This document shows positions 3,039 to 41,486 of a stretch of 55,101 nucleotides of DNA, piece by piece. The stretch covers positions 1 through 55,101 of the IMG/VR virus record IMGVR_UViG_3300031862_000774; one strand, 5' to 3'. Source of the DNA: a virus. The position numbers were made by a program, and so were the translations under genes. Under the pieces are notes generated by a model. That model had not been told where the DNA came from and did no database searches. It saw only the letters and a list, made by a program, of their open reading frames with translations. Every line of letters begins with the position of its first letter. Position 1 is the stretch's first letter.

Positions 3039-3084
3039 CAAGGATGAAAAAACAAATGAGCGGCGGGACCGCAGCGGTGGAGGG

Positions 3085-3137: not shown

Positions 3138-3140
3138 ACG

Positions 3141-3482: not shown

Positions 3483-3527
3483 AGCCGCCAGTCAGTTCAC
3501 GGAATACCTGGTATAAGTATATAATAT

Positions 3528-3662
3528 GTATACACTGGGGGTAGCAAGCACATGTATACGACGGGGGTAGCGGTTTACAGGGGAAACCGAAAACAGCACA
3601 ATTTTTCGTCACCCCTTCTTGTATACACTGGGGGTAGCGGTCTTGTATACACTGGGGGGTGT
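3528..3662. repeat. Four iteron-like direct repeats, candidate replication origin
   Basis: The unit is GTATACACTGGGGGTAGC. Copies are at 3528-3545 (exact), 3554-3571 (two changes), 3621-3638 (exact) and 3645-3662 (diverged at its 3' end). They form two pairs, 26 and 24 bp apart. The GTATAC core is palindromic and the rest is asymmetric, as in initiator iterons. They follow the Rep-like gene at once. From 3663 to 3871 I see no gene, only moderately AT-rich sequence before the next ORF. Confidence 0.6.
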
Positions 3663-3871
3663 TGCTTTTGATTTTAGGACTCAGCCAATGATAAACCAAA
3701 AAGCGAGTAAAGAGATCGCCTCCGTCGGCCTCTCAAGTCGCACTGGATTCGCGCCACACGCTGGACTACTTGTCCATATTTTCCCCCTGATATCCGGGAA
3801 ATTGACGGGATTATTGACGTGTTCGATAAATAAAGATAAGGCTAACTTATTGCAAATAAAAGGCTTATGAA

Positions 3872-4414: not shown

Positions 4415-4417
4415 AGA

Positions 4418-4705
4418 ATGAGTGGAACAACCGACAGACAGCGTCTTGGAGCTGTGCCCAAGAACTCGACGCAGGAGATTCGGGTTTCTGTGGGAGATTA
4501 CGGTGGGGTGCCCTATATCTACGCTCTCATTTGTTTGAGTGAAGAACCGCCCGAGACTGAGATGGAGCGGCATCCTGGGCTGACGATTCGGGCGCATACG
4601 CTTCGGCCTTTGATTCCGCTTCTCTCTAAGGCGCTCGAGGTTGCCGAGGCAAGGGAGAAGGCAGCGTGGGATGAAAGGCCGGAGGTACGGAGGCGGAGGA
4701 GATGA
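4418..4705 (+). CDS. PC4/p15-like protein, copy 2
   Basis: A 95-residue protein whose middle (EIRVSVGDYGGVPYIYALIC, a gap, then HPGLTIRAHTLRPLIPLLSK) follows the same strand-hairpin-strand-helix order as the PC4-like protein at 2772-3038, with weak sequence identity. It ends in an Arg-rich tail. The start is three bases after the preceding stop. A diverged paralogue in so small an element suggests two different ssDNA or promoter partners. Function is not proven. Confidence 0.4.
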   Translation: MSGTTDRQRLGAVPKNSTQEIRVSVGDYGGVPYIYALICLSEEPPETEMERHPGLTIRAHTLRPLIPLLSKALEVAEAREKAAWDERPEVRRRRR

Positions 4706-4887
4706 GGAAGGCGGAAAAAATAATTCTAACCCATGGCCTTGAAAGGGGCGTAACCAAAGAGGACTTAATAATAGGCGCTCCACTGGGCAATTCTTGCCCA
4801 AAGGCAAAAGAACAGACTTGGTATCTCGGGAGAACCAGGTTGGGGGTAATCCGCCCATGTTTTAAGTGGTGCATTTGCATCACTTAG
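4702..4887 (+). CDS. Small hypothetical protein, doubtful
   Basis: A 61-residue ORF overlapping the preceding stop as ATGA. The first 30 residues look protein-like (AEKIILTHGLERGVTKEDLI). The C-terminal end runs into an inverted repeat (4864-4885) and looks non-coding. It may be a real short gene or simply the non-coding leader of the terminase gene. Confidence 0.3.
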   Translation: MRKAEKIILTHGLERGVTKEDLIIGAPLGNSCPKAKEQTWYLGRTRLGVIRPCFKWCICIT

Positions 4888-4920
4888 ATTTTTGAAAGGG
4901 TCTCTCCCACGGGAGCGACC
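4864..4920 (+). promoter_or_regulatory. Two hairpins in front of the large terminase gene
   Basis: The first hairpin is AAGTGGTGCA (4864-4873) with TGCATCACTT (4876-4885), ten pairs including one G-U, followed by AGATTTTTG. The second is GGTC/GACC (4899-4902/4917-4920) around CTCCC/GGGAG (4904-4908/4911-4915). They could attenuate or terminate transcription entering the terminase gene. The T-tract after the first is short. Confidence 0.4.
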
Positions 4921-4941
4921 TCGGGCAAAGAAGGTGAAACA

Positions 4942-6474
4942 GTGAACATCGTCGATTTCGTTGAGAACATCATCGGTGACGAGTCCATGTCTCCGGCGCA
5001 GCGGATGGCGCTCAAGGCGATATACGGGTTGCCCTTGACGGCGGAGGAGCTGGTTATTTACCAAAAGACGGCGGGCCTTTCAGAGTATAAGCCTCGGGAG
5101 TGGCCGGAGGCGACGTTTATACTTTCGCGGAGATCGGGCAAAAGTGACAAGCTGGCATCCAACATCGCACTGTATGAGGCCTGCGCACGGGAACATAAGC
5201 TGAGTGTGGGGGAGACGGGCGTTGTGATGATCGTGTCTTCGGAGCTGAAGCGGCAGAGCCGGATCGTGTTTGATTATTGTCTCGACAAATTGGAGAAATC
5301 AAAAGTCCTGCGAAAACTAATTAAGAAGGTGACTTCGGATGAGATCACCTTGACGAACGGCGTTTCAATTCAGGTTTTTCCTTGCAACCAGGCGCGGATT
5401 CGCGGGCAGAGTTTGATTTGTTTTATTGGCGATGAGTCCGCGTTTTGGAAATGGGAGGGAAAGTCGATTGACAAAGAAGTCCTGGACGCGGCCAGGCCGG
5501 GGTTGAGTTTTCCACACTCGAAATGCGTGAAAATCAGCAGTCCCTGGATGATGAGGGGGGAAATTTACAATGACTATAAACGTTATTGGGGGAAGGCAGA
5601 CGCGGAGGTCCTGGTTCTGCAGGGCGACATTTATACATTCCGGCCCGACTACAGCGAAAAGAAACTTGAGGCGGCCAGGAGAAAAAACCAAATTGCATTT
5701 GAGCAAGAATGGCTTGCGCGTTTCAGGACTGATCTCAGCGGCATGTATGACCCGGCCGTGATCGACCGCGCCGTGAATCCTGATCGACCAATGGAGCTTC
5801 CTTTCCGGGCCGGAGGAACCCGCATGGCCTTTGTAGATGTGGCAGGTGGGGGAGGCCGGGATTCATACGCCATCGCTATTGGAAGACTCGAGGGTGAGCG
5901 GGTGATCGTGGAGGTTATCCGCAGCCGGGCGCCGAAATTCAATCCCGAAGAAGTGACGGCGCAATACTGTGAGCTCTTAAAGTCATATCATGTTTTTGAA
6001 GTGATCGGCGACAAGTTCAGTGGCGATTTTGCCTCATCGCTGTTTGAGAAGGCCGGTATAAATTACCTGCGGGCCGAAAAGACGAAGAGTGAGCTCTACA
6101 TCGAAGCGGAGGGCGCTTTCAACGCCGGGCTGGTGGAGATCCCCAACAAAGAGCCGCTGGTCTCACAGCTCAAGTCTTTAGTGAGAAAGGCGAGGACGGG
6201 AGGACGCGATTCCGTTGACACGGATGGCGGAGCGCCGGAAGATGAGGGCAATGCTTTATGCGGTTTGATTTTTATGCTTCAGGACCAGACGCGCAGACCG
6301 CAGCCGATGATATGGCGAGTTGGGGACAGTTTCAAAACTGATAAAAAGTCCGGGCCGGGAATAGTGCCCGAGGCGCTTTTGGGCCTTCCCGAAGATGTGT
6401 TAGATAAGCGACTCGATGCGCTCACGGAAGCGCAATTGGAAGAGCTGCGGGTCACTTTGGAGAAAGAAACATGA
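4942..6474 (+). CDS. terL: Terminase large subunit (small element)
   Basis: A 510-residue protein with an N-terminal packaging ATPase: Walker A SRRSGKSDK (K67) and Walker B LICFIGDESAF (D164, E165). The C-terminal RNase H-fold nuclease shows MAFVDVAGGGGRD (D299), VIGDKFSGDF (D357) and a late Asp/Glu cluster. This ring motor pumps DNA into proheads through the portal and cuts the concatemer. The start is GTG after GAAGGTG. It is only distantly similar to the prophage terminase at 35108-36442, so the element brings its own motor and presumably its own packaging specificity. Confidence 0.93.
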   Translation: MNIVDFVENIIGDESMSPAQRMALKAIYGLPLTAEELVIYQKTAGLSEYKPREWPEATFILSRRSGKSDKLASNIALYEACAREHKLSVGETGVVMIVSSELKRQSRIVFDYCLDKLEKSKVLRKLIKKVTSDEITLTNGVSIQVFPCNQARIRGQSLICFIGDESAFWKWEGKSIDKEVLDAARPGLSFPHSKCVKISSPWMMRGEIYNDYKRYWGKADAEVLVLQGDIYTFRPDYSEKKLEAARRKNQIAFEQEWLARFRTDLSGMYDPAVIDRAVNPDRPMELPFRAGGTRMAFVDVAGGGGRDSYAIAIGRLEGERVIVEVIRSRAPKFNPEEVTAQYCELLKSYHVFEVIGDKFSGDFASSLFEKAGINYLRAEKTKSELYIEAEGAFNAGLVEIPNKEPLVSQLKSLVRKARTGGRDSVDTDGGAPEDEGNALCGLIFMLQDQTRRPQPMIWRVGDSFKTDKKSGPGIVPEALLGLPEDVLDKRLDALTEAQLEELRVTLEKET

Positions 6475-6755
6475 ACAAAGACAAACTAAAAAATCTGATC
6501 AAGGGATTGCTGAAAGAAAAAAAGACGACAGAGGAGACAGAGTTTGAACGCAAACGGCGAGAGTTCACAGATCGTATCAGCCATGGATATTCGCCATCCG
6601 CCGGGGAGGTTGCGAATCTGATCGAGGGCCTCACGGCTGACGGTTTTGATCGCCTGGGCCGAAAGGTCTCATTTATTGAACACGGGACGCCGGTCTTCGG
6701 CAGAAGAACGAAGCTTTCGGAGCCGCCTGTTTCCCTCACGGAAAAAAAGACTTGA
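6471..6755 (+). CDS. Hypothetical protein after terminase
   Basis: A 94-residue protein, ATGA-overlapped with the terminase stop and so part of the same operon. The N-terminal half is charged and helical, with lysine-rich LIKGLLKEKKTTEETEFERK. The rest has no motif that I recognise. Its position behind TerL would suit a small packaging or connector factor, but nothing in the sequence proves that. Confidence 0.6.
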   Translation: MNKDKLKNLIKGLLKEKKTTEETEFERKRREFTDRISHGYSPSAGEVANLIEGLTADGFDRLGRKVSFIEHGTPVFGRRTKLSEPPVSLTEKKT

Positions 6756-6781
6756 CATGAACTTGACACCTGTTTTATACT
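6752..6781 (+). promoter_or_regulatory. Sigma70-type promoter
   Basis: TTGACA (6752-6757), an 18-bp spacer and TATACT (6776-6781). A second TTGACA at 6763 is too close to the -10 box to pair with it. Transcription should begin near 6788, the A of the next start codon, giving a leaderless or nearly leaderless message for the HTH protein and then integrase. Confidence 0.65.
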
Positions 6782-6787
6782 AAGGGC

Positions 6788-6976
6788 ATGATCGAAATCA
6801 TTAGAGAACTCAAGCGCGTTATTCAGGAAAAGAAAATCAGTCCTGAGACGGCGGCATTATTCATCGGCGTTACGGGCCGGGAGGTCCGGCGCTGGCTTGA
6901 GGATAGGGTCATTCCGCTCCCGGAAAGCCGAAGAGCCATCCGGCGCGGACTTAGGCGAATCAGGAAAATTCTTTGA
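6788..6976 (+). CDS. Small helix-turn-helix protein before integrase
   Basis: A 62-residue protein with one HTH (SPETAALFIGVTGREVRRWL, about residues 18-37) and a strongly basic C-terminus (RRAIRRGLRRIRKIL). Size and placement fit a transcriptional regulator or excision factor controlling the integrase 10 bp downstream. Its message may be leaderless because the -10 box ends only six bases before the ATG. Confidence 0.6.
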   Translation: MIEIIRELKRVIQEKKISPETAALFIGVTGREVRRWLEDRVIPLPESRRAIRRGLRRIRKIL

Positions 6977-6986
6977 GAGGTGAGGC

Positions 6987-8135
6987 ATGAGAAACGAGAA
7001 AAACCTTGTCTTCATTCCGGCGGCGGATGGCAAACCGGCGCACTATCTCACAGAGATCACGCTGAATTATCGCCGGGTCCGGCGCTTTGCTGGACACACA
7101 AAAGAGGAAGCCAAGACATTTCTTGCCAAGCTGCGGATCGCGGCCAGGGAAGGGAAGGTCGAGGACCTGATCAGCCCGAAACCGGCAAGCGATACCTTCG
7201 GCGAATATGCCAGGGCGCTTCTGGACAGCGCCGAATGGAAGCAGAAACGGAGCGCAGCGCGAGACGAGGCTTCCCTCCGAGCGCTTAACCGCACGTTCAA
7301 GAACGTGCCACTCAGGGCGATCAGGCCGAATCTGGTCCGCGATTACATGACGGAGAGGATAAAGGCGGGCTTGCGACCGGCCTCGGTAAACAGGGAGCGC
7401 AGTCTTCTGGTCAGCATCCTCTATGCGGCCGTGGGAGATGGAGTAATCGAATCAAACCCGATCGGCCAGAAGGGAGTGAGGCGCCTTGAGGAGAATAACA
7501 GCCGTGAGCAGAGAATCCTTGAACTCGGCCTGACCGATAAAGACATGCGACGCCTAATCTCCTGTGCGGACCCGCGCACGCGGCCAGTCATCGAGATAGC
7601 ACTTCTCACCGGCATGCGGCTTTCTGAGATTCTGAGTCTCAAGTGGAATCAGATTGACCTCCCGCGGCGCCGACTCACGATCCCATTGACAAACTCGAAG
7701 AGCAAGAGAGAACGGACGATCCCGATCGGTGGGGACTTGCTTCGGGTACTCCTGGCGATCAAACGCCATGGCGAATATGTTTTCCCGAATGGCGGAACCC
7801 ACGTCAAGAGCATCCGAAAATCGTTCAGCGCGGCCCTGGAAGCGGCGAAGATCCCGGGCGGCCGGGAAAAGGGCATTGTCTTCCATGATCTCAGGCACAT
7901 CGCAGCCTCGCAGCTCGTCAGGGTGATCGATGTCGTGACGGCCTCCAGGATACTCGGCCATGCGTCGGTCGAGATGACCATGCGTTATGTCCACCCAACT
8001 GATGCGGACAAGCAAACGGCTCTCGAGGCCCTCGGCGAGTGGTTACGAGGACGTCAAAATCCCGTCAATACCTTTGAGAGAGGCTCCGGCCAGGAGCTTT
8101 CTGTGGCGGCGAGCTCATCCCGCTTGCTAAATTGA
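6987..8135 (+). CDS. int: Tyrosine recombinase / integrase (small element)
   Basis: A 382-residue protein. An arm-binding N-terminus and a core-binding domain (about 68-150) precede the catalytic domain with R211 (LLTGMRLSEIL), H300 and R303 (HDLRH), H325 (LGHAS) and Tyr334 (MRYVH). The full tyrosine-recombinase set is present, so it should be active. RBS is GAGAGGTGAGG. The gene points at tRNA-Arg, which begins 33 bp after its stop, and the presumed tRNA promoter overlaps the end of this gene. It is a different subfamily from the prophage integrase on the other side of the tRNA. Confidence 0.93.
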   Translation: MRNEKNLVFIPAADGKPAHYLTEITLNYRRVRRFAGHTKEEAKTFLAKLRIAAREGKVEDLISPKPASDTFGEYARALLDSAEWKQKRSAARDEASLRALNRTFKNVPLRAIRPNLVRDYMTERIKAGLRPASVNRERSLLVSILYAAVGDGVIESNPIGQKGVRRLEENNSREQRILELGLTDKDMRRLISCADPRTRPVIEIALLTGMRLSEILSLKWNQIDLPRRRLTIPLTNSKSKRERTIPIGGDLLRVLLAIKRHGEYVFPNGGTHVKSIRKSFSAALEAAKIPGGREKGIVFHDLRHIAASQLVRVIDVVTASRILGHASVEMTMRYVHPTDADKQTALEALGEWLRGRQNPVNTFERGSGQELSVAASSSRLLN

Positions 8136-8152
8136 AATCAATAAGTTACAAT
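8124..8152 (+). promoter_or_regulatory. Probable promoter of the tRNA gene, overlapping the integrase end
   Basis: TTGCTA (8124-8129), a 17-bp spacer and TACAAT (8147-8152). Predicted initiation is near 8160, nine bases before the mature tRNA 5' end. The -35 box lies within the last integrase codons. Confidence 0.45.
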
Positions 8153-8168
8153 CTTTTTTGACGCGGGT

Positions 8169-8243
8169 GCCCCTGTAGCTCAGTATGGATAGAGCAATGG
8201 ATTCCTAATCCATGTGTCGCCGGTTCGAGTCCGGCCAGGGGTA
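8169..8243 (+). tRNA. tRNA-Arg (anticodon CCT)
   Basis: Complete cloverleaf. Acceptor GCCCCTG (8169-8175) pairs with CAGGGGT (8236-8242). D arm AGCTC; anticodon stem ATGGA/TCCAT with loop TTCCTAA, anticodon CCT at 8204-8206; T arm GCCGG TTCGAGT CCGGC. Discriminator is A8243; CCA is not encoded. Its 3' side faces the leftward prophage integrase, the classical arrangement for integration into a tRNA 3' end. Confidence 0.95.
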
Positions 8244-8302
8244 CTCCACTTTCCCTTTAGTATCAGCTATTTGCGGCCAGGGGGCCCTTTCGGGTCCATG
8301 TG

Positions 8303-8325
8303 CCATGTGTCCAGAAATGTGTCCA
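8303..8325. promoter_or_regulatory. Candidate integrase arm-type repeats
   Basis: ATGTGTCCA occurs at 8305-8313 and 8317-8325, twelve bp apart, and CCATGTGTC also occurs in the tRNA (8210-8218). Short direct repeats beside the tRNA 3' end are where arm-type integrase sites of the prophage would lie. The rest of 8244-8367 holds no gene. Confidence 0.35.
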
Positions 8326-8367
8326 ACGCTCCGCCGTTTTCGTGTTCTTCTCCATGCCCACTGAGCC

Positions 8368-8607
8368 CTATTTTTTCGATTTACTCGCCAGAAGAGAGCT
8401 CAGGCGGTCTCTGTAAAGTTCCAGAAGTTCTTTAAAGGCGCAACCTTTTTCATAGAACACGGCGCAGTTCTCTTTTAGGCACTCGGCCCGCTTCGTGAGT
8501 CTTCCAAAATAAGCCTGCCTCTTGTCTTCCTCTTCCTGGAAGCGAACGTCTCTCGCCATCTCGCTTGAGGCCAGAACTCCAGCCAATAGAAACGGACATG
8601 CAGCCAT
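8368..8607 (-). CDS. Small hypothetical protein after integrase
   Basis: A 79-residue protein, start 8607, with a strong GAGGAGGGATTAAA ribosome-binding site one base after the integrase stop, so it is the last gene of the lysogeny operon. The first 14 residues are hydrophobic and the rest is charged and helical with Cys at two positions (CLKENCAVFYEKGC). No family is recognised. Position suggests a factor connected with integration or the lysogenic state. Confidence 0.6.
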   Translation of the reverse strand: MAACPFLLAGVLASSEMARDVRFQEEEDKRQAYFGRLTKRAECLKENCAVFYEKGCAFKELLELYRDRLSSLLASKSKK

Positions 8608-8608
8608 T

Positions 8609-9697
8609 TTAATCCCTCCTCGTTTTTTGAGTTAGGCGGCCGACTATCGGGCCGCCCGTTCTATCCATAAGCTCCACGGCCCTCCTTTTCCGGTCCGGGT
8701 CCGTGTGCGTGTAGAGCAGGCTCGTCATGGAGCTCGAATGGCCGAGCAGCTCGCTCACCGTGACCAGGTCCGCCCCTTTCTCCAGGAGCGCAGTCGCAAA
8801 GAAATGACGGAGCAGGTGGAAGTGGAAGGGGACACCGGCTCTCTTTGATATGAGCGCCGTGGTCCGTCGGAAGAGGCCGGGCCGGTCGCGGTTCGGGATG
8901 TAGAACACGAACTCCGAGCGGCGCGCCTGCCGGGCCAGGACAGCCTGCGCGGCCTGGTTCAGTGGGACCTCCCTTATCTTATCCCCTTTGCCCCGGACAA
9001 CGATTTCCCCGTCTTTAATGTCATGCCAGCGGAGGCCCAGGAGCTCCGCTTTCCTGAGGCCCGTATTCAGGGCGAACTGCACGAGGTCATAAAAGGCCTT
9101 CTGGAGCGGGGAGGCCGGCTTGTCGCTGATCGCCCGGGCCGCCTCCAGGACCTTCTCGAGCTCGGCCTCGGAGAGCGGCTTTACCGGCGAGGACTCCCGG
9201 AAAAACTTGACCTTTCGCAGCGGATTCGGCCCCGGGTAGAGACCCCAGTCCATCGCCCGATAGAACATCCCGCGCAGCAACTGCAGATAGCGGTTGAGCG
9301 TGGCCTTCGACCTGTCCGGCTTCCTTTTCTTCCCTTCCTTGACCGGATCATCCTTCCTCTCCTTGAGCCAGGCCCGGAGCTGCTCGATGTGGTAGGGCGT
9401 GACCTCGGAGAGCAGCGTGATCCCCGAAGCCTCGAAGAAGGCCTGGATTTTTGGCAGACGCTGCGCCTCCATGATCGCCGAGGCCGGTTTCGTGCTCCAG
9501 GCATAGTCCAGATACCGGCGGCAGAACTCCGAGAAAAGGATGTCGTCCTTCCGGGCCGCGGCCTTCAGCTTGCCAAGAACCCTTTTGGCTTGATCGAGGG
9601 CCTCGAAGTAGTTATCGGTTTTAAGTGACCGTCGATATCGCTTCTTTTCGACCCAGACATCGAGCCAGTAGAAGCGGCCGTGCTTGTGGAGGGCCAT
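8609..9697 (-). CDS. int: Tyrosine recombinase / integrase (prophage)
   Basis: A 362-residue protein from ATG 9697. A longer frame to 9751 would overlap the upstream gene; 9697 follows that gene's stop by one base and gives the usual start HKHGRFYWLDVWV of the AP2-like arm-binding domain. Core-binding domain about 50-150. Catalytic residues are R215 (NTGLRKAELL), H294 and R297 (HLLRH), H320 (LGHSS) and Tyr329. It is transcribed toward the tRNA 3' end and should catalyse integration there. Confidence 0.93.
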   Translation of the reverse strand: MALHKHGRFYWLDVWVEKKRYRRSLKTDNYFEALDQAKRVLGKLKAAARKDDILFSEFCRRYLDYAWSTKPASAIMEAQRLPKIQAFFEASGITLLSEVTPYHIEQLRAWLKERKDDPVKEGKKRKPDRSKATLNRYLQLLRGMFYRAMDWGLYPGPNPLRKVKFFRESSPVKPLSEAELEKVLEAARAISDKPASPLQKAFYDLVQFALNTGLRKAELLGLRWHDIKDGEIVVRGKGDKIREVPLNQAAQAVLARQARRSEFVFYIPNRDRPGLFRRTTALISKRAGVPFHFHLLRHFFATALLEKGADLVTVSELLGHSSSMTSLLYTHTDPDRKRRAVELMDRTGGPIVGRLTQKTRRD

Positions 9698-9698
9698 C

Positions 9699-10037
9699 CT
9701 ATGAGTCTTTTTTCTTGCTTTTCCTTTCGACTTTATAGTGGCTTTCCTCAAAAGAAGGCCCGATCACGGTACTGACCACATAGGTTTCGCCGATCCACCA
9801 TTGGCTCAATTTGATCATCGTGCTGTAGTGGAGGATCACCGCTCCATTTTCGAATTTTAGCGTCCACCAGCCGTACATACTGCCCGAGGGGCTCAGGGTC
9901 TCACCGCGACTCAGGTCCGGGCTGAAGACCGCATCTTTTAGGGCCGATTCGAACAGGACGGATTCCTTCTGCTCTTGAGCAATCAGAAAATTGAATAGAA
10001 TGAAGACTGTGCCTAAAAGAGCCGCACCTCTTCGCAT
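9699..10037 (-). CDS. Exported protein in the lysogeny operon (possible lysogenic conversion factor)
   Basis: A 112-residue protein with a signal peptide (MRRGAALLGTVFILFNFLIA, then QEQ as a likely cleavage position). The mature part has predicted beta strands with aromatic residues (YGWWTLKFENGAVILHY) and a Lys-rich tail. RBS is GAGGAG. It lies between repressor-operon genes and integrase, so it is likely expressed in the lysogen. No family is recognised; altering the host envelope is an inference. Confidence 0.65.
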   Translation of the reverse strand: MRRGAALLGTVFILFNFLIAQEQKESVLFESALKDAVFSPDLSRGETLSPSGSMYGWWTLKFENGAVILHYSTMIKLSQWWIGETYVVSTVIGPSFEESHYKVERKSKKKDS

Positions 10038-19909: not shown

Positions 19910-20230
19910 ATGACCAAGAAAAACGATTTGAAGGAAGAGGTGAAAAAGGATCTGGAAGAGGCGGGCTTTCTGGCGACAGGGAAAAAGGAACCGGCGCAGA
20001 AGCCGCTCTTCGGCGACATGGATTTGGTCATCAACACGCTCGAAACGGAAGCGACGGAAATCAAGAAGCAGATCGAGAAGGCCCAGGATTCAATCGACCG
20101 GAGGAAGGAGGAGATCTCCGATCTCGGGGAGAGGCTGGACAATATCGAGACTTCGCTGGCCAAGCTCCGGGCGAAAGCGAAGGAGGTCGAGGCCCCGGCG
20201 GAAGAAAAGGAAGGGGAGCCGCCGTTCTGA
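19910..20230 (+). CDS. Coiled-coil protein with SSB-like C-terminal tip
   Basis: A 106-residue protein from ATG 19910 after GGAGGAGATAAAAAC; the in-frame ATG at 19847 has no ribosome-binding site. Residues 40-95 form a heptad coiled coil. It ends in EEKEGEPPF, an acidic stretch capped by Pro-Phe, as in SSB tips and in the protein at 16726-17418. It lies just before RusA. Confidence 0.55.
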   Translation: MTKKNDLKEEVKKDLEEAGFLATGKKEPAQKPLFGDMDLVINTLETEATEIKKQIEKAQDSIDRRKEEISDLGERLDNIETSLAKLRAKAKEVEAPAEEKEGEPPF

Positions 20231-20652
20231 TGATCACACTGACAGTCCCGGGTGAGCCCATGGGGAAGGGCCGGCCGCGCTGGGCGAAGTGGGGAATTTA
20301 TACACCCAAGAAGACCGTGAACTACGAGACGCAGATCCGGGAGCGCTTCTCGGCCGAGTACCCGGGGTTCGAACCGCTTACCTCTGCCATTCGCCTTGAG
20401 CTTTCCGCCTACCTGGGGATCCCCTGTTCGGAGAGTAAGCGGAAGCAGGCGCTCATGGAGGCCGGCGCGATCCGGCCGAAGAAAAGGCCGGATCTGGACA
20501 ATATCGAGAAGGTTGTCCTGGATGCTCTCCAGAGCATCGCCTTCCGGAACGACAGCCAGGTCTGCGCAGTCGACAAGATGAAGTGGTACTCACGGACGCC
20601 ACGGCTCGAGATTCGGATTCTGGAGATCAAAGAGGAAGGAGGCAAAGAATGA
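20230..20652 (+). CDS. rusA: RusA-family Holliday junction resolvase
   Basis: A 140-residue protein, the normal length. It shows the N-terminal PGEPMGKGRPRW and the catalytic acidic set RPDLDNIEKVVLDAL (D88, D90, D98, K94) and NDSQV (D108). RusA dimers cut Holliday junctions in phage recombination and prepare branched DNA for packaging. TGATG overlap with the previous gene. Confidence 0.9.
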   Translation: MITLTVPGEPMGKGRPRWAKWGIYTPKKTVNYETQIRERFSAEYPGFEPLTSAIRLELSAYLGIPCSESKRKQALMEAGAIRPKKRPDLDNIEKVVLDALQSIAFRNDSQVCAVDKMKWYSRTPRLEIRILEIKEEGGKE

Positions 20653-20840
20653 TAAGAGCATATCGAATTAGAATCGTTGAGATCAGAAAAAGGATCAACG
20701 ACATTATTGATGCAGAGCTCGCCACGCTGGACAATGAAGAACTGAGACAAGTCAAAGAGAACAACGGCAGCAAACGAATTGCGGTGCCGGAAGGAACAAA
20801 AGAAATCATGGATGCCGAAGCCGAAAAGAAGGCAGAATGA
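20649..20840 (+). CDS. Small helical protein
   Basis: A 63-residue protein from ATG 20649, overlapping the RusA stop, RBS AGGAGG. Highly charged and predicted helical. No motif recognised. Confidence 0.55.
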   Translation: MIRAYRIRIVEIRKRINDIIDAELATLDNEELRQVKENNGSKRIAVPEGTKEIMDAEAEKKAE

Positions 20841-20926
20841 CCGATCGTCGTGCTGGTAAAGTTTTCCTCGCTCACTGGGATGAATGGGTTGAGCTGTGCA
20901 GGGAGCAAAATGAAGACCCGAGATAG
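20837..20926 (+). CDS. Very short hypothetical protein
   Basis: A 29-residue ORF (ATGA overlap, stop TAG 20924-20926) beginning MTDRRAGKVFLAHWDEW. Placement supports translation; length alone would not. Confidence 0.35.
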   Translation: MTDRRAGKVFLAHWDEWVELCREQNEDPR

Positions 20927-21028
20927 GTGGACGAGCTAACTTTTGGAATAGGTGGAGGAAATTACTTTACTGTGAGGCCGAATTGCGATCCGCCGGAGGA
21001 GGCCGCCGATGAGGAGAAAGATGAGTGA
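20927..21028 (+). CDS. Very short hypothetical protein, doubtful
   Basis: A 33-residue ORF from GTG 20927 ending in EEAADEEKDE, the acidic ending produced by the start-site repeat in this frame. No clear ribosome-binding site. Listed because the same C-terminal sequence recurs in the following genes. Confidence 0.25.
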   Translation: MDELTFGIGGGNYFTVRPNCDPPEEAADEEKDE

Positions 21029-21203
21029 GACAGAACGATATGAACGGAGGCAAACCTTCGTTGCTCGCCGTAGAGCGATAGGGAAGGAATGGCATAGGTT
21101 ACATCCTGAAGGCATCAACGCATCGAACCTTGTGGATTTCAAGGTATTTATGAAGCGTCGGGAAAAAGAGGCCGCCGGTGAGAAAGCGAAAAACCGAGGT
21201 TAA
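21009..21203 (+). CDS. Small cassette protein 1
   Basis: A 64-residue basic, helical protein beginning in repeat copy 1; a second in-frame ATG (21021) follows GGAGAAAG. It ends through repeat copy 2 (KEAAGEKAKNRG). No family recognised. Confidence 0.55.
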   Translation: MRRKMSETERYERRQTFVARRRAIGKEWHRLHPEGINASNLVDFKVFMKRREKEAAGEKAKNRG

Positions 21204-21432
21204 AATATTCGCTGTTTCGCCATTCGCTCAAAAAAAAGAGGTTGACCTATATTGTTTTGGCTCGTGCGGGAAAATAATCGTTGGAGCAATTACTATCTGT
21301 GGTGGCACGTTTTTTCCATGCAAAGAAGATATTTGCCCTCATGAAGAAAAACGTACTCCTGAGCCTATCGGGAGAATCGAATCACAATTTGTATACGTGA
21401 GGAAATTAAGGCAGGCTGCCGATGAGCATTGA
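21178..21432 (+). CDS. Small cassette protein 2, cysteine-rich
   Basis: An 84-residue protein from a GTG inside repeat copy 2. Several cysteines (LYCFGSCGKIIV, ITICGGTFFPCKEDICPHE) suggest zinc binding. It ends in RQAADEH from repeat copy 3. Confidence 0.55.
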   Translation: MRKRKTEVKIFAVSPFAQKKEVDLYCFGSCGKIIVGAITICGGTFFPCKEDICPHEEKRTPEPIGRIESQFVYVRKLRQAADEH

Positions 21433-21646
21433 ATTTGAGCGAGGAGACCTACCTGAGCTTGGTCGCATGGAAATGACCTGTGATTTTCCTGATTGCAAAG
21501 TCACCGACTATTTTGATGGTGATTTTCGAGAATGCGTCAGCCAGGCTAAGGAACATGGATGGCATATTTTCAAGGCGAGTCCCGATGAATGGGAACACTA
21601 TTGTCCTGAACATGCAAAGGAGGCCGCCGATAAGGAGGAAAGATGA
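21422..21646 (+). CDS. Small cassette protein 3, zinc-finger-like
   Basis: A 74-residue protein from repeat copy 3. MTCDFPDCKVT and HYCPEHAKEA form a possible Cys/His site, with a DFRECVSQAKEHGWHIF helix between. The composition resembles small phage zinc-binding proteins. Confidence 0.6.
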   Translation: MSIEFERGDLPELGRMEMTCDFPDCKVTDYFDGDFRECVSQAKEHGWHIFKASPDEWEHYCPEHAKEAADKEER

Positions 21647-21837
21647 TAAAACTTGAAGACCTTTTACCGTGTCCCTTTTGCGGAGGAAAAGAAGTGGAAG
21701 AGGGAACCAGCGAAGATGGAGTAGATTTGGTTGTAATATGTCATGACTGCGGGGCTTGTGGCCCGCCTGCCGACAGCATCGCAGGGGCAAGGGAGGAATG
21801 GAATAAGCGAGGGGGGAAGGAGGCCGCCGATGAATAA
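21643..21837 (+). CDS. Lar-like restriction-alleviation family protein
   Basis: A 64-residue protein. LLPCPFCGGKEVE, VICHDCGACGP and a final AREEWNKRGG are the hallmarks of the Lar family (a zinc ribbon followed by an A..WN.R helix). Family members in lambdoid prophages modulate type I restriction enzymes, but many phage homologues are untested. Start after AAGGAGGAAAG. Confidence 0.7.
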   Translation: MIKLEDLLPCPFCGGKEVEEGTSEDGVDLVVICHDCGACGPPADSIAGAREEWNKRGGKEAADE

Positions 21838-22042
21838 AGCAAAGAAAAAAGAAATGCCATTATGTTCTTGTGGGTTTCCGCAGAGTTTTCCCATACCACA
21901 TGAACATGATAGAACAGAACGGGAAAAACAGATAATTAATTACTATGAACGTCGAGATGCCATGTTCAGACATGTGGATGCTGTCCAGGAATTTCTTCGT
22001 GCGAAGAAAGAGAAGGAGGCCACCGATGAGGAGGAAAGATGA
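21830..22042 (+). CDS. Small cassette protein 5
   Basis: A 70-residue protein from ATG 21830 in repeat copy 5. MPLCSCGFPQSFPIPHEHD near the N-terminus may bind a metal; the remainder is helical. It ends in KEATDEEER through repeat copy 6. Confidence 0.5.
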   Translation: MNKAKKKEMPLCSCGFPQSFPIPHEHDRTEREKQIINYYERRDAMFRHVDAVQEFLRAKKEKEATDEEER

Positions 22043-22329
22043 GTGAGGTAAGTAAAGAGAAAAAGCTACGTTGGCTGGCCTTGAAAAGAACTGCGGTTTA
22101 TATGGATTCGACATATCAAAGCACTGGAACATTGTCAGATTTAGCCAAGGTAGAATTGGAGACAATTGATGCCATCCGCCGTCTCATCGAGAAGGTGGGA
22201 GAATGGCAAGAAAAAGCAAAAAAGCATCTTGAGAAATTGGATGATGAACCATTGGCGATGGATGTATTAGATGCCTTGGATTTGCTTGGCGAAATCCGTG
22301 ATTTTGGAAAGGAGGCCGCCCATGAGTAA
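22039..22329 (+). CDS. Small cassette protein 6
   Basis: A 96-residue, mainly helical acidic protein. The start is 22039 after GGAGGAAAG; the ATG in repeat copy 6 (22026) would stop after a few codons. Ends GKEAAHE through copy 7. No family recognised. Confidence 0.55.
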   Translation: MSEVSKEKKLRWLALKRTAVYMDSTYQSTGTLSDLAKVELETIDAIRRLIEKVGEWQEKAKKHLEKLDDEPLAMDVLDALDLLGEIRDFGKEAAHE

Positions 22330-22486
22330 GCAAATCCAATGCCCAAATTGTAATGGAGAAGGAAAATTTATGGAGGCAGATAGATTCGCTGATGAGTATG
22401 GAGAGAGGTGTATTATTTATATCCAATGTGAGCGTTGTCATGGGGATGGGTGGATTGAGGGAAGTAGAAAAGGAGGCCGCCGATGA
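22322..22486 (+). CDS. DnaJ-type zinc-finger small protein
   Basis: A 54-residue protein from ATG 22322. CPNCNGEGKF and CERCHGDGWI are two CxxCxGxG repeats, as in the DnaJ zinc finger. Ends in RKGGRR through repeat copy 8. Confidence 0.65.
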   Translation: MSKQIQCPNCNGEGKFMEADRFADEYGERCIIYIQCERCHGDGWIEGSRKGGRR

Positions 22487-22668
22487 GTAAACCTGAATTT
22501 TGGTGGTGTATCAAAGCGGAGAATAAACTTCAGGCATTTACTGCTTCCCTTAATAAATTTGTACCCGTTTCTATTTGGCTTAAATATCTTAACCGCGAGA
22601 AATTACGAGTGGATGAATCCGTCGTTCGCATCTGCGTCAAGGAAGCACATAAAGGAGGCCGCCGATGA
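22483..22668 (+). CDS. Small cassette protein 8
   Basis: A 61-residue protein from repeat copy 8, aromatic N-terminus (PEFWWCIKAENKLQAF), ending HKGGRR through copy 9. No family recognised. Confidence 0.5.
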   Translation: MSKPEFWWCIKAENKLQAFTASLNKFVPVSIWLKYLNREKLRVDESVVRICVKEAHKGGRR

Positions 22669-22844
22669 GGAAGCTGAGTGAAAGGGAGATACCGAAAATC
22701 CTGGATGAATTGATAGCCATTAAGAGGTTATTAATTCTGGAATTGCTGACATCTGGCATTAAGGCTAAAGATATCGCAGGGATGATTGGGGGAAAGACAA
22801 AAGAAATAGAACAGATTTTTAAATCCAAAGGAGGCCGCCGATGA
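22665..22844 (+). CDS. Small cassette protein 9, HTH-like
   Basis: A 59-residue gene from ATG 22665 (repeat copy 9) to TGA 22842-22844. Residues from about 31 on (IKAKDIAGMIGGKTKEIEQI) look like a helix-turn-helix of the sigma/resolvase kind. It ends in SKGGRR, encoded by copy 10. Confidence 0.55.
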   Translation: MRKLSEREIPKILDELIAIKRLLILELLTSGIKAKDIAGMIGGKTKEIEQIFKSKGGRR

Positions 22845-23125
22845 GTGAATTCAAATTTAGATTAGATAAAGAACAACTCGAATCTGAATTAAATGGTGTG
22901 GCCACAGGATACCCCCCATCCAAAGAATGGGTAAATCATATCCGCTGCCTCATCGAGAACATGGACAAGAAGGTGAACAGGGAATTTGTGCAAAGATATG
23001 AAGGACTAATAAAAGAAGCATGGAGTATGGATTGGCCGATTTTGAAAGTAAACGAAATAAAAAGAATTTTAGATATGATGCTTGCCGAACTCGGCCATGA
23101 GGTCGAGGAGGAGGAGGAAAAATGA
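22841..23125 (+). CDS. Small cassette protein 10
   Basis: A 94-residue helical protein from ATG 22841 in repeat copy 10, ending in an acidic run (EVEEEEEK). The next gene is served by a plain GAGGAGGAGGAAAA site, so this is the last member of the repeat series. Confidence 0.55.
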   Translation: MSEFKFRLDKEQLESELNGVATGYPPSKEWVNHIRCLIENMDKKVNREFVQRYEGLIKEAWSMDWPILKVNEIKRILDMMLAELGHEVEEEEEK

Positions 23126-32442: not shown

Positions 32443-34059
32443 TTGGCTTATACATTTTTAGAACTTCAGCAGTATGTCCAGGACAAGATAAACGCTGCTC
32501 GTCTGACCACCTGGACGGCGCAGAATGATGTTTCTTATTGGCGTGGACTTCAGCATAAATATGACCAGCAGCTTTTGGACGTGGTTGAGCAATATAAGGA
32601 CAAAGGCAAGCGGTTAATTGATGAATACAAGCGCCGCCTTAACGAGATGGATGAGTTAATCAGCGGGGCGGGGATTTCCATCGTCGATTTTAAGTCCGAC
32701 ATGAAGGCGTTGGTGGCGAAGGTGCTGAGGTTGGCCGATAAATATTGGGCTGTGCGGTATGAGATTGAGGGAAGGCAGAAGGGATTTTTTGTCCGCAAGC
32801 CTGTAGGTACAACTTACTACATCGACTTCGTGGATGGCCTTGACACGAATGACGGACTTTCAATAACGACGGCCTGGAAGACACTTGAAAAATACACAAC
32901 TGTTACGGTGAGGTCAGCGGGCGATATTGCACTGGTCAGGGCAAATAAAACAGAGATTCCAGCTGGAAATATTCCTTTTGATGAAAGCGGAAACAAGGGC
33001 AGCAGAATTTCAATAATAGGTTGTGATTCTGTGATTAATGACCCGTGGAACGACGATTCTGATGTGCTTCCGATTATAGATTTTAATGGGGCAGCTTATT
33101 GTGGTACGAAATATAGTAATGATTACTGGGACATAGAAAGACTTGATATTAAAAATGGAGCCTCTACGTATTATGGCACTTGGTATGACTACGAAAGTGT
33201 AGGAAATTTATACAAGGGAGTTAAATTCTCAACGACTGCAACGATTACAAAGACTATGATATCATCGATTCTTTACTTTTCTGAGTTTGTTGAATGTGAA
33301 TGGACAACCCCGCAAAATAATGGCGAAAGAATCGCCTATCAGCTTCAAGATTGTAGAATGTTAATTTTCAGAAAATGTAAATTTAATAAAGGCAATCTTG
33401 CAAACCCAGCTGAGGGATTATATTTAACCAGGTCTTTTGTAGAGATTATTGATTCGGAATTTGGACAGATAAGTGCATTAGATATCGATATTATAGGTTC
33501 ATCGGTTATTCTGATAAGAAATTCAAAAGTGGATATTACAAAAATTTCCATTGGTACAAGTCCTGGTGTAATTGTTCGCATGGAAGACCATAACCAGATT
33601 ATCTATGATGGATACGTAAAATATGGTCCTGGTCAAGTTAGCAGAGATGCGGCAATAAAAACCGGAAATGCTAATTTCTCGGTTAAAATAGAACCATCCT
33701 CTGGGTGCGGAATTTATGCACCATTGGATTTATCGGGTTATCAAACAGAGTCGCCTTTCCAGGTCAAACTCTCCGCCTCCGTCCAGAAGACGCTGACGGT
33801 GAAAATGAAAGCTGATACTGCCTGGACAGTCTATCCAACAGCGGTTGAGCTTTATCTTGAGGTGAGCTATTATAGCGATGGAGCAAATGCTAATAGAACA
33901 ACAATAAAATCGACTCAGGTCATAAGCCAGGTTGATACATGGACTGATTTTTCCGTCACAATCACACCCGCAAGAGACGGTATTGCATACGGGAACGTCT
34001 ATCTTAAAAAATATGAGGCTAACTTTATCAGGGTGAATGGCGAAATGGTGGTGAGTTAA
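32443..34059 (+). CDS. Tail fibre/spike-like protein with beta-helix core
   Basis: A 538-residue protein from TTG 32443. An N-terminal helical region (about 1-105) contains a coiled coil. It is followed by TYYIDFVDGLDTNDGLSITT, a common lead into a right-handed beta-helix, then helix-like rungs (about 120-400) and a C-terminal carbohydrate-binding-like beta-sandwich (about 400-538). The middle is AT-rich compared with neighbours, which suggests recent acquisition. Likely an adhesin that binds or degrades host glycans. Confidence 0.6.
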   Translation: MAYTFLELQQYVQDKINAARLTTWTAQNDVSYWRGLQHKYDQQLLDVVEQYKDKGKRLIDEYKRRLNEMDELISGAGISIVDFKSDMKALVAKVLRLADKYWAVRYEIEGRQKGFFVRKPVGTTYYIDFVDGLDTNDGLSITTAWKTLEKYTTVTVRSAGDIALVRANKTEIPAGNIPFDESGNKGSRISIIGCDSVINDPWNDDSDVLPIIDFNGAAYCGTKYSNDYWDIERLDIKNGASTYYGTWYDYESVGNLYKGVKFSTTATITKTMISSILYFSEFVECEWTTPQNNGERIAYQLQDCRMLIFRKCKFNKGNLANPAEGLYLTRSFVEIIDSEFGQISALDIDIIGSSVILIRNSKVDITKISIGTSPGVIVRMEDHNQIIYDGYVKYGPGQVSRDAAIKTGNANFSVKIEPSSGCGIYAPLDLSGYQTESPFQVKLSASVQKTLTVKMKADTAWTVYPTAVELYLEVSYYSDGANANRTTIKSTQVISQVDTWTDFSVTITPARDGIAYGNVYLKKYEANFIRVNGEMVVS

Positions 34060-37856: not shown

Positions 37857-38667
37857 GCTTCACGATCTTGTCGTCGCATTCCTGAAGCGGACCGGCTACA
37901 GGGAGCGGCAGCGCGCTCGGGCCCTCGCGGGCGAAGGGGGAGTCCGCAAGAAGCTCGAGTCGAGCGTCAGGGGATGGATCCAGTTCATGCGCCAGCAGGC
38001 CGTCCCACTCGAGGAGCCGGACGAGGAGAGGCTCCTGGACTGGAAGGAGATGGAAACGAAGGGCGGGCGTATGCTCCGGGCTGCCTACCTGGACATTCTG
38101 AAGACCTTGGCTGAGCGGGCGGGCGTCTCGAAGCAGGAGGCCGCCGGGGTGCTCAACACCCAGGCCGTCACCTGGGCCGAGCTCTTCGCCGCCAGGATCA
38201 TCAAGCAGATCATCGACGAGACGAAGAAGGCCGTGCGCTCAATCATCACTGCGGGACTCAAGCAAGGGCTGTCCATGCCGGCTATCAACATGCAGCTCCG
38301 TCCGATCATCGGGCTGAATGACCGCCTGGCCGGCGCAGTCAGCCGCTACTCGACCGAGCTTTTCACCCGCCCGAAGTGGGCCGGCCTGACCGACGAGGAC
38401 CGCTTCAGCCGGATCGAACGTTATGCCCAGAAGCTCCAGCGCTACCGGGCGGACAATATCGCCAGGACGGAAACGGCGCACGCGATGGACGAGGGGACGC
38501 TTTTCCGGTACGAGGAGTTCGGGGTGAAGGAAGCGGAAGTCCTCGCCGCTCCCGGCGCCTGCCCGGTCTGCGCGGCGCTGGATGGCCAACGCTATCCCGT
38601 GGCCGAGGCCCATGGGATCCTGCCGGTCCATTGCGATTGCCGCTGCGCCTGGGGGGCTGCGTCATGA
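37837..38667 (+). CDS. MuF/SPP1 gp7-like minor head protein
   Basis: A 276-residue protein. YRADNIARTETAHAMDEGTL is the MuF core motif and CPVCAALDGQRYPV with HCDCRCAW its metal-like C-terminal end. These proteins sit inside the capsid at the portal and aid assembly. Start overlaps the portal gene, stop overlaps the next start. Confidence 0.85.
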   Translation: MSKKLVELHDLVVAFLKRTGYRERQRARALAGEGGVRKKLESSVRGWIQFMRQQAVPLEEPDEERLLDWKEMETKGGRMLRAAYLDILKTLAERAGVSKQEAAGVLNTQAVTWAELFAARIIKQIIDETKKAVRSIITAGLKQGLSMPAINMQLRPIIGLNDRLAGAVSRYSTELFTRPKWAGLTDEDRFSRIERYAQKLQRYRADNIARTETAHAMDEGTLFRYEEFGVKEAEVLAAPGACPVCAALDGQRYPVAEAHGILPVHCDCRCAWGAAS

Positions 38668-41486
38668 AGATAGAAGACATCTCGGCCGAGACGATCAAAA
38701 AGGTGGATGACCGGGAGCTCCGCAACCTGCGCTTCAGGTTCATCCAGCTCTGGGAGGGGACCTTCTCGAAGAGACACGGGCCCGAGGTCGCCGATTTCCT
38801 GAGTCATTACAGGATCCTCATTGGCGAGATGAACAGTCGCGGGATCGAGAGGCAGAACATCTATGACATCGATCGGGAAGTTATGAAGGGCGTCCTCTAC
38901 GGCTTTTCTCCTCAGGCCCTCGATGAATTTGTTTATATCCCCGATTTTGTCTCGATTGGCGGCAGTTATGTAAATTCGCCAAAGGGCGCGAATGACATCG
39001 ATCTTGTTATCAGGAAGGAAGGCTGGGATGAAGGATTGATTTTAAAGCTCGGCCGGATTCTGAAGGAACTCGGAACGGATCGGCTGCATTTCGTCTGGTC
39101 GCAAACCGGTCCGCATAGCAGTTACATCCCCGTCTTCGACTTGGTCCTGCGGCCGAAGAACGGATTCCAGAGGGTGGAGGTCGACGAGGGGCGGATCGCC
39201 AAGGCCGACGGCACCCAGGATGGCGGGCCCGTGGACAAGACGTCGTTGACGTTGGGCCGGCCCTTCACGCCCCTCAAGTCGCGCGGCGGGTATGGTGAGT
39301 ACGAGTTCGCCGACATAGACGTCCTCTGGACGACCTGGGCCCAGGGGTACATCCCGGAGCCCGGCGTGGCCGTCGAGACGAAATTCGACGGATTCCGGAT
39401 CCAGGTCCACAAGAGGCGAGACGAGGTCAAGATTCTCTCCGAGGACGCCCAAAGGGACCTCGCTGACAGGCTCCCTGACGTTGTCAAGGAACTCGAGAGT
39501 TATCCTGGCGACTTCATCCTGGACGGTGAGCTTCTGGTCTATCTCGGGGATAAGAAGGTCGAGCGGAGGGACATGCCCTCTTATCTGACGACGAAGGAGC
39601 CCGGGCCATTCAAGGCCATCGTCGAGTGCTTCGACTGCCTGTGGCGGGATGGCAAGCCGCTGAATGACCAGCCGTGGATGGAGCGCCAGAAGGCGCTAAC
39701 GGAGCTCTTTGGGAAAGTCGACGAGAAGCTTGTCCGGCGGGTCCAGTCCTCCCTGACCCACAGGGAAGCCGATTTCCGATCAGCCGTGAAGCGATGCGCC
39801 GCCGTCGCGCATTCGGAAGGCGCGATGTGCAAGGTCGTGAATTCCGAATACCCCCTGGATGGCCACACGCAGGAGTGGGCGAAATTCAAGAACTTCAAGA
39901 GCCTGGCCGTGAAGGTGACCGGCAAGGAGGCCAAGGAGGGCGGCGGCTGGATCTACACGTGCGAAATCGCCCAGGGGATACCGATCGGCCGGACCTACGC
40001 GACGTCACTCGAGGCGAAGGTTGGCGACGTCATCGAGATAGCGGCCGCGGAAGTGAAGCACGACGAGAAAGAGGACAAGTTCACCTGGGACAACCCCATC
40101 CCGAGGGAAGTGAAGGCCGGGGGCACGGCGCTGACGACGAGAGAGCAGGCCCTGGCCCTGTCGCGGCTGGGCCGGACGGCGCAGAAGGCCGAGGGCAGGT
40201 TGACGTACGCGGCGGGGGACAAGGGCACGGGCATCGCCCAGGTCCACATCATGGGACTCGATGAGAAGCAGGTGGGGGAGCTCAAGAAGGTCGGGGACAG
40301 GATCCGGGTGGCCGCGGCTGAACCGGCGAAGCTCAGGGCCGTACTCTTGGGGGCGATCGGCAACGCCGGCGCGCACGTGGACATGAGGCTGAGGAAAGGG
40401 ACGGCGAATTTCTGGGAGGGCAACGAGATCTTCATCGGGAACCTCGAGGGGCTGCCGAAGCTCGACAAGCTCAAGAAGGAGGGCGAGAGCCTGCGCAGCG
40501 ACTGGAAGGTGCCGCACAAGGACGAGCCCCGGGGCGAGACCATCCAGGGTCCGCTCGGCTGGATGGAAGCCGGCGCCCGCCAGCCTGACATCTTCCAGCC
40601 TGGGGAACCAGGGGCCACCACCAACAAGTACGGCGCGATGATCAGGATAGACAAGTTCACTTGGACCATCTATTACGCCAAGGAGGACGGCCACGCCTAC
40701 AAATTCCACTTCGACGGCGGCGTCTATCTCGACGGAAACTTCCTCTGGGCCTATGTCCCGATGGCCGAGGGCCGGATGTGGATGGTCAGGCGGCTGGACG
40801 ATGACGACGACAAGCAGCCCATGGAGAAACGGGAGCACGATCCCGGGTACGTTGCCGAGACCGAGCGCATCAACGAGAACAAGGAGAAGCCCGAGGCCTC
40901 GAAGCCTCATGAGTTCAAGAGGGCCCAGTGGACGTTCCCCAACGGCCATCCTCGCTGCCTGATGTGCGGCCAGGAGGAGCCCATAGGCAAGGTCTGCAAC
41001 ATGCCAGCCGGCTGGTATAAGAGACGCGAATGGGACGATGAGGCCGGCTGGGCGGAGGAACGCAAGAAGCTCAGGACCGAGGGCGTCATCAAATCGAAGG
41101 AGCCGCTCGCCAGGCCGGTCCAAAAGGACCTCGAAGTCTTCATCTTCAAAGAGGACCAGCACATTGCCGGCGGCATCGTCTACGAACCGGACACAGTCGA
41201 CGGCCAGGGAGACTGGGCCTCGGAGGATGACATCCGGGAGGCCGAATATTACTTCATGGAAAACTCCCAGCAATTCAAGGTCCGCCACAGGGGGGAGCCG
41301 GACCCGACCATCCGGATCCTCGAATCCTTCCTCGCGCCGGCGGATTTCAAGATAAACGGCCGTTTCGTTAAGAAGGGCAGTTGGTATCTCACCCTCAGAA
41401 TCAACAACGAGGCGGTCTGGCAGCAAATCAAGGAAGGGAAACTCACCGGGTTCTCGCTGGCCGGGACGGCGATGGAAGAGGCCTGA
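38664..41486 (+). CDS. Nucleotidyltransferase - ATP-dependent DNA ligase - XkdF prohead protease fusion
   Basis: A 940-residue protein from ATG 38664 (overlaps the MuF stop); the longer frame to 38376 only shadows MuF. Domains: (1) residues 90-165, Pol-beta-type nucleotidyltransferase, SIGGSYVNSPKGANDIDLVI with D111, D113 and a third acid D159. (2) 235-410, covalent ligase core: ETKFDGFR (nucleophile K240), FILDGELLVY (E289), ECFDCLW, SEGAMCK (E385, K390), EWAKFKNF (K407, K409). (3) 412-485, OB-fold-like. (4) 486-715, unassigned, with QPGEPGATTNKYG. (5) 762-778, Cys/His knuckle. (6) 820-938, XkdF-like protease, VYEPDTVDGQGDWAS, H875, LTGFSLAG (S931). Only the last domain fits the location, between portal/MuF and scaffold. 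Proteolysis may release separate enzymes. Confidence 0.85.
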   Translation: MKIEDISAETIKKVDDRELRNLRFRFIQLWEGTFSKRHGPEVADFLSHYRILIGEMNSRGIERQNIYDIDREVMKGVLYGFSPQALDEFVYIPDFVSIGGSYVNSPKGANDIDLVIRKEGWDEGLILKLGRILKELGTDRLHFVWSQTGPHSSYIPVFDLVLRPKNGFQRVEVDEGRIAKADGTQDGGPVDKTSLTLGRPFTPLKSRGGYGEYEFADIDVLWTTWAQGYIPEPGVAVETKFDGFRIQVHKRRDEVKILSEDAQRDLADRLPDVVKELESYPGDFILDGELLVYLGDKKVERRDMPSYLTTKEPGPFKAIVECFDCLWRDGKPLNDQPWMERQKALTELFGKVDEKLVRRVQSSLTHREADFRSAVKRCAAVAHSEGAMCKVVNSEYPLDGHTQEWAKFKNFKSLAVKVTGKEAKEGGGWIYTCEIAQGIPIGRTYATSLEAKVGDVIEIAAAEVKHDEKEDKFTWDNPIPREVKAGGTALTTREQALALSRLGRTAQKAEGRLTYAAGDKGTGIAQVHIMGLDEKQVGELKKVGDRIRVAAAEPAKLRAVLLGAIGNAGAHVDMRLRKGTANFWEGNEIFIGNLEGLPKLDKLKKEGESLRSDWKVPHKDEPRGETIQGPLGWMEAGARQPDIFQPGEPGATTNKYGAMIRIDKFTWTIYYAKEDGHAYKFHFDGGVYLDGNFLWAYVPMAEGRMWMVRRLDDDDDKQPMEKREHDPGYVAETERINENKEKPEASKPHEFKRAQWTFPNGHPRCLMCGQEEPIGKVCNMPAGWYKRREWDDEAGWAEERKKLRTEGVIKSKEPLARPVQKDLEVFIFKEDQHIAGGIVYEPDTVDGQGDWASEDDIREAEYYFMENSQQFKVRHRGEPDPTIRILESFLAPADFKINGRFVKKGSWYLTLRINNEAVWQQIKEGKLTGFSLAGTAMEEA

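Follow-up and report, generated by a model that had tools for sequence, protein, structure and literature searches.

A 17-letter sequence, AAGGAGGCCGCCGATGA, recurs in ten copies in a temperate tailed phage and bounds small genes that are found in scrambled order in other phages; it therefore seems to be the joint for gene swapping. We consider it probable that the repeat is a portable stop-Shine-Dalgarno-start joint and that recombination within or adjacent to it adds, removes and rearranges the cassettes it bounds. One recent transfer of a single gene was observed, as were conservation of the joint, its independence from reading frame, scrambling of gene order and edges of similarity at the repeat.

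The window analyzed is a virus record of 55,101 bases from IMG/VR. It opens with the terminal part of a prophage (major head protein at 915, terminase-like protein at 4942, integrase at 6987). A tRNA-Arg (CCT) gene is located at 8169-8244 between two integrases, and is followed by a second temperate tailed phage, whose genes include those for an integrase, a Cas4-like exonuclease, ParB, RusA, terminase and portal as well as head and tail genes. Positions 1-9751, where integrases flank the tRNA-Arg gene and the head and terminase-like genes of the other phage precede it, apparently contain tandem prophages sharing one tRNA attachment site. In the neighboring prophage, the 19-nt sequence TGTATACACTGGGGGTAGC is present four times as a direct repeat at 3527-3662. 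The repeat array is located between RusA (20230-20652) and a lysis-like region starting at 23445. The nin region of phage lambda is an accessory block of small genes between replication/recombination and lysis genes, and the location of the array parallels it. A Gp3-like recombination directionality factor (PF18897) is encoded beside the exonuclease gene; no annealing protein was recognized in the window. Elsewhere in the window, a 538-aa protein encoded upstream of the terminase (32443-34059) has no PHROGs or Pfam match, and a 1,036-aa protein (38376-41486) matches DNA ligase families and, separately, families of head maturation proteases or methyltransferases. The search with a library of defense genes returned a single weak match. 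Searches for a host were negative: GTDB genomes yielded no relative when queried with the exonuclease profile, and among 111 genome matches to an 18-mer, none showed a repeat array in the portion retrieved. When annotated phage records were searched with the array (distant blastn) or with the exonuclease protein, no informative match was obtained.

The whole window was scanned for sequences with at most three mismatches to AAAGGAGGCCGCCGATGAG. Ten copies were retrieved between positions 20996 and 22844, with 0-3 mismatches in the 19-mer, compared to 0.03 expected from shuffles, and no further copy was present in the rest of the window at this threshold. The number and places of copies given in a preliminary description of this DNA were thus confirmed. 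All ten copies are on the plus strand, at gene junctions, and three of them are exact 19-mers.

The array, whose genes are likewise all on the plus strand, begins with the HWDEW gene (20837-21012), 84.7% identical at the nucleotide level to positions 18675-18844 of contig G001. An in-frame TAG is present at 20924-20926 of the window gene, while the G001 relative is open; the window gene may be decayed or a variant. Copy 1 (20996-21012; 19-mer 20995-21013; GAGGAGGCCGCCGATGA) ends this gene in the EEAADE frame and starts cassette 1 (21009-21203, 64 aa), whose homologue in contig G010 has repeats on either side. Copy 2 (21165-21181; 19-mer 21164-21182; AAAGAGGCCGCCGGTGA) has a GTG start and is followed by cassette 2 (21178-21432, 84 aa), which has a homologue in L257. 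The most diverged copy, copy 3 (21409-21425; 19-mer 21408-21426; AGGCAGGCTGCCGATGA), precedes cassette 3 (21422-21646, 74 aa, phrog_926). In copy 4 (21617-21633; 19-mer 21616-21634), ATA replaces ATG and the tail reads EAADKEER; a second Shine-Dalgarno and then a start at 21643 follow, the latter belonging to cassette 4 (21643-21837), a Lar-like restriction alleviation protein (Pfam PF14354). Copy 5 (21817-21833; 19-mer 21816-21834), an exact 17-mer, provides the Lar-like gene with an EAADE tail; cassette 5 (21830-22042, 70 aa) belongs to no family. Copy 6 (22013-22029; 19-mer 22012-22030) encodes an EATDEEER tail and is also followed by a second Shine-Dalgarno and a start, at 22039, where cassette 6 begins (22039-22329). 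The latter represents the AIRRLIE family (F1), the most widely shared one; its predicted structure is helical (mean pLDDT 83.5) and is of low confidence in the C-terminal tail translated from the repeat. This tail, EAAHE, is encoded by copy 7 (22309-22325; 19-mer 22308-22326), which is followed by cassette 7 (22322-22486), a CxxC zinc-binding protein similar to the DnaJ central domain with homologues in L255 and L257. The last three copies are exact and encode GGRR tails: copy 8 (22470-22486; 19-mer 22469-22487), copy 9 (22652-22668; 19-mer 22651-22669) and copy 10 (22828-22844; 19-mer 22827-22845), the last being identical over 23 nt to a G002 copy. They precede, respectively, cassette 8 (22483-22668), of the WWC family (F2) with homologues in G002, G010, L255 and L257; cassette 9 (22665-22844, 59 aa), with no family; and cassette 10 (22841-23125, 94 aa), which has an ATCCGC..CTCATCGAGAA block in common with F1 and a Glu-rich C-terminal tail that overlaps the following Shine-Dalgarno.

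Every copy had been proposed to supply a Shine-Dalgarno and a start codon. As can be seen, this holds for eight copies but not for those at 21617 and 22013, where the usable start is 13 nt downstream, at the second Shine-Dalgarno AGGAGGAAAGATG; the ATG of the 22013 copy itself opens just 6 codons. The proposal that the copies encode the end of the preceding protein in different frames was borne out, with seven of ten in the EAADE frame and three in the GGRR frame.

IMG/VR was scanned with the repeat, a looser repeat pattern, ParB, the exonuclease, a regulator and two gene families of the array. Repeat arrays were found in eight further records, several of them nearly unrelated to the window phage outside the array. 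The repeat-bearing contigs, with 1-7 copies each, are G001, G002, G010 (the same as G011), G014, G004, G017 (L255), G018 (L257) and G021; the repeat is absent from two other contigs retrieved, G003 and G013. The exonucleases of G002, G010 and G014 are 76-81% identical to that of the window at the amino acid level, and the neighboring genes are also common; G004 shares ParB and terminase with the window; G001 and G021 share almost nothing with it outside the array (tblastn). Since relatedness outside the array is this uneven, the arrays cross otherwise different phages. Isolated copies of the motif, located where two genes overlap, also occur in unrelated phages and bacterial genomes and are background, so only dense arrays were taken as evidence. 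Two joints of other kinds were seen along the way. At about 6265-6450 of L257 (reverse orientation) there is a joint of the same geometry with another spacer, AAAGGAGACTCCTAATGA, at which genes end in ETPND; spacers of the joint may be group-specific. In a different phage (L245, 3269-4061 region; G016, IMGVR_UViG_2913584337_000003), two EAADE-type joints lie around a gene that appears YopX-like by eye, reflecting either independent origin or wider spread.

Over 31 copies, positions of the Shine-Dalgarno part are conserved at 90-97% and those of the spacer at 81-97%. In the same contigs, 79 other starts preceded by GGAGG have spacers of variable length with a mean GC of 0.36, and none of the 20 six-nt spacers among other strong starts is within one mismatch of CCGCCG. 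The spacer is thus conserved beyond what is seen at other strong starts, as suggested in the preliminary description, in a comparison that is partly circular because the copies were picked by similarity. A scan with the inner DNA block of F1, rather than the repeat, as the query is an independent check on repeat conservation, and it retrieved two more arrays with repeats. The 37 copies from 8 contigs share one consensus, with an identity of 0.879 within contigs and 0.873 between contigs. Since copies resemble each other no more within contigs than between them, local duplication fails to explain them.

The reading of the repeat by the upstream gene was assigned by a script, with copies left unassigned being read by hand. 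It was EAADE in 18 cases (including the interrupted 20837 gene), GGRR in about 9, fused in 1 and non-coding in 3; fusion is less frequent than one in three (P 0.00018). Conservation of the EAADE-silent positions equals that of the others, and spacer identity is 0.80 at non-homologous junctions of nearly unrelated phages. Because frames vary and EAADE-silent positions are equally conserved, we conclude that selection or exchange acts on the nucleotides of the repeat, not on the tail peptide. A protein-level reason for the repeat was rejected, as its nucleotides are translated in two or three different frames and also occur in non-coding settings.

Comparison of the arrays shows that homologous repeat-bearing genes sit beside different neighbors. 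In the eight arrays, 9 adjacencies are conserved compared to 5.1 in shuffles (p 0.09), i.e., gene order is close to random; core genes, such as the exonuclease and those after it, keep their order among relatives. By clustering, F1 has 15 members with largely different neighbors; a 5′ repeat is present in all of the first nine found, and some members in L255 and L257 have none. Similarity begins or ends at the repeat, as expected of a sequence at the boundary of mosaic modules. For pairs of junctions with only the downstream family in common, identity is 0.36 upstream, 0.91 in the repeat and 0.52 downstream; with only the upstream family in common, the values are 0.48, 0.88 and 0.38, and for unrelated pairs 0.35, 0.88 and 0.38. 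Likewise, the similarity between the window and G001 over the HWDEW gene ends within copy 1.

The recent transfer is seen in contigs G021 and G002, which share a 339-nt block; on both contigs it comprises two successive repeats and the sequence between them, with its limits at the outer ends of the repeats. The inner 283 nt are identical in these otherwise divergent contigs, with both edges of this core 10-13 nt from a repeat, and the 45-nt flanks of the block are unrelated (identity at background, 0.33). At the G021 joint, a G010-like gene on the left leads, as it does in G010, into the repeat and then the start ATGAGCAAGCCTGAA, and a G002-like gene lies on the right, an arrangement that unites partners from two different phages. 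A 36-aa gene of G001 is also present whole in G021, at 95.6%. Thus, the cassette shuffling suggested in the preliminary description was supported when related phages were compared: single genes bounded by repeats have been gained, lost and reordered, in nearly unrelated phages as well.

Exchange is not confined to the repeat. A 1,649-nt block that is 99.3% identical in G021 and G017 starts within a gene and ends at a start codon that lacks the repeat, and families F5 and F6 are arranged differently in G002 and G010, where the edges fall at gene boundaries of which not all are repeats. Since recent exchange edges are also located at starts without a repeat, the repeat is a preferred joint and not the sole one. 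No two copies match exactly over more than 23 nt. Minimal pairing lengths of 23-27 nt for Red-beta and 31-34 nt for RecA have been reported (PMC3945230); this longest match is therefore at the lower limit of the former and under that of the latter, which is short for homologous pairing (PMC3945230). That the identical 283-nt core ends 10-13 nt before the repeats, and that the window has no recognized annealing protein, also count against exchange at the repeat itself. Homologous pairing at the repeat, which may be the physical mechanism, is plausible and agrees with the exchange edges. At the end of another contig (L268, G020; 9400-9489, minus strand), the sequence resembles a hybrid of two F2 paralogues with the intervening genes missing, due to either deletion via recombination between the paralogues or assembly collapse.

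Several other explanations of the repeat can be weighed against these data. It may be merely a good start signal spread by duplication and hitchhiking, with illegitimate exchange, selection of gene-exact products and a spacer that is functionless baggage. Gene-exact exchange edges at junctions without a repeat fit this explanation, as do the single motif copies at overlapping junctions in unrelated phages and bacterial genomes. We nevertheless consider it unlikely, since the spacer retains its 0.80 identity at non-homologous junctions with no decay at EAADE-silent positions, copies are equally alike within and between contigs, and other strong starts of the same contigs lack such a spacer (0/20 six-nt spacers). 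Alternatively, the arrays could be chimeric assemblies of mixed metagenomes, joined at the short repeat. All records, those of the relatives included, are metagenome contigs, so that some chimeric joins are conceivable; in addition, G020 starts in the hybrid of F2 paralogues, which could be a collapse at a common 60-nt stretch. However, G010 and G011, two metagenome records, are 99.99% identical over 26,640 bases across the array, and the same F1 stretch is present in three records (L255, L258 and L261). Assembly usually needs overlaps longer than 17-23 nt, the length of the repeat. This explanation is therefore very improbable.

The repeat could instead be the recognition site of a regulator, for example the shared operator of a translational repressor over the Shine-Dalgarno, with shuffling being a separate process in which genes with the operator are retained. 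Phage T4 RegA is such a translational repressor of many early genes. Conservation of the spacer that far exceeds the needs of translation, in all frames and in the three non-coding settings, is consistent with such a site, and so is the confinement of copies to starts and to this operon. On the other hand, AAGGAGGCCGCCGATGA is asymmetric and strictly oriented and lacks the dyad symmetry of an operator for a dimeric repressor; recurring inverted repeats at the copies, a folding signal and an Rfam match were all absent; members of the same families exist without the repeat; and no candidate regulator was identified. Shine-Dalgarno accessibility was 0.57 compared to 0.58 with shuffled flanks, providing no sign of RNA structure, an Rfam search retrieved no family, and promoters and terminators inside the array were not in excess over shuffles. 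Binding of a regulator, which had been proposed earlier, thus found no support in the symmetry, folding and Rfam checks, and we regard it as unlikely.

The portable joint can be compared with several known systems. Start-associated sequences (SAS/ESAS) are known from mycobacteriophages of cluster K (Pope 2011, PMC3203893) and from Microbacterium phages of cluster EF (PMC7302621). Like the repeat, they are short, asymmetric, oriented motifs over the Shine-Dalgarno of many small non-structural genes, are conserved beyond 16S pairing and are attached to genes of various families. All ten copies are located as SAS are, i.e., a few nt from starts, in one orientation and at non-structural genes. The sequences are, however, unrelated: the SAS consensus GGGATAGGAGCCC, with up to two deviations allowed, has one match in the window (18968, outside the array) compared to 2.06 expected. 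SAS genes mostly follow gaps of >50 bp (PMC3203893), whereas the repeat mostly overlaps the end of the upstream gene. About half of SAS sites have the 17-bp inverted repeats of ESAS (PMC3203893), while no recurring pattern of inverted repeats was found within 40 nt of the copies. The resemblance to SAS noted in the preliminary description thus extends to position, but not to sequence, intergenic setting or a linked inverted repeat (PMC3203893). A role in translation or regulation was proposed for SAS (PMC3203893); for the repeat, edges of single-gene exchange at the motif were demonstrated. The Citrobacter myophage Mordin (PMC4611695) has a 26-bp SAS-like repeat in front of eight small genes of unknown function, likewise start-associated and unrelated in sequence to the window repeat.

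In the part of the lambdoid phage literature considered here, conserved boundary sequences together with homologous recombination were proposed as the source of mosaics (PMC3029335). As described there, these are short common sequences at module boundaries, which is also true of the repeat (PMC3029335). Unlike lambdoid boundaries, the repeat has one consensus, occurs up to ten times per genome, bounds single genes and also serves as the start of translation and as the end of the gene before it. Integron cassettes resemble the array in being single genes with a short common flanking sequence and a shuffled order. In contrast to integrons, the repeat is just 17-23 nt long and doubles as a Shine-Dalgarno, and the integrases of the window are by the tRNA gene, as in prophages; no folding signal or recurring inverted repeats of the kind expected for attC-like sites were found at the copies. 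By analogy, the repeat would combine the workings of SAS and of lambdoid boundaries without being a proven member of either, and is best described as a start-associated joint that bounds exchangeable single genes.

The joint would operate in an operon of temperate tailed phages that is hypervariable and made up of small accessory genes. Each cassette would be one gene, the end of which overlaps the start of the next within the same 17-23 nt. The joint would end the upstream gene in two of three frames via a short dispensable tail (EAADE or GGRR) and supply a full Shine-Dalgarno to the downstream gene; with a frame-tolerant stop and a full Shine-Dalgarno, almost any order of cassettes could be translated. 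Because the same joint is present in many phages, a short identical sequence would be available at gene boundaries, and recombination in or beside it would lead to gain, loss and reordering of cassettes. We infer that adjacent cassettes are translationally coupled and that exchange takes place through pairing or annealing at the repeat. More tentatively, and with considerable doubt, we suggest that the repeat is maintained in nearly unrelated phages as a dedicated frame-tolerant exchange joint, by selection, since lineages with the repeat can draw individual accessory genes from a pool open to all of them.

The role of start-associated repeats of phages has been open since 2011, and that of boundary sequences in mosaicism has been debated for longer. 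The repeat joins both questions, being a start signal and the edge of recently exchanged single genes. It provides a concrete, testable system, a simple rule for locating sites of accessory-gene exchange in metagenomic phages and a set of mobile small genes, including a Lar-like one, with a possible role against host defenses. If the reading as a dedicated exchange joint is correct, acquired accessory genes would be translatable on arrival, and there would be a cassette system inside a ribosome binding site that has no site-specific recombinase to itself.
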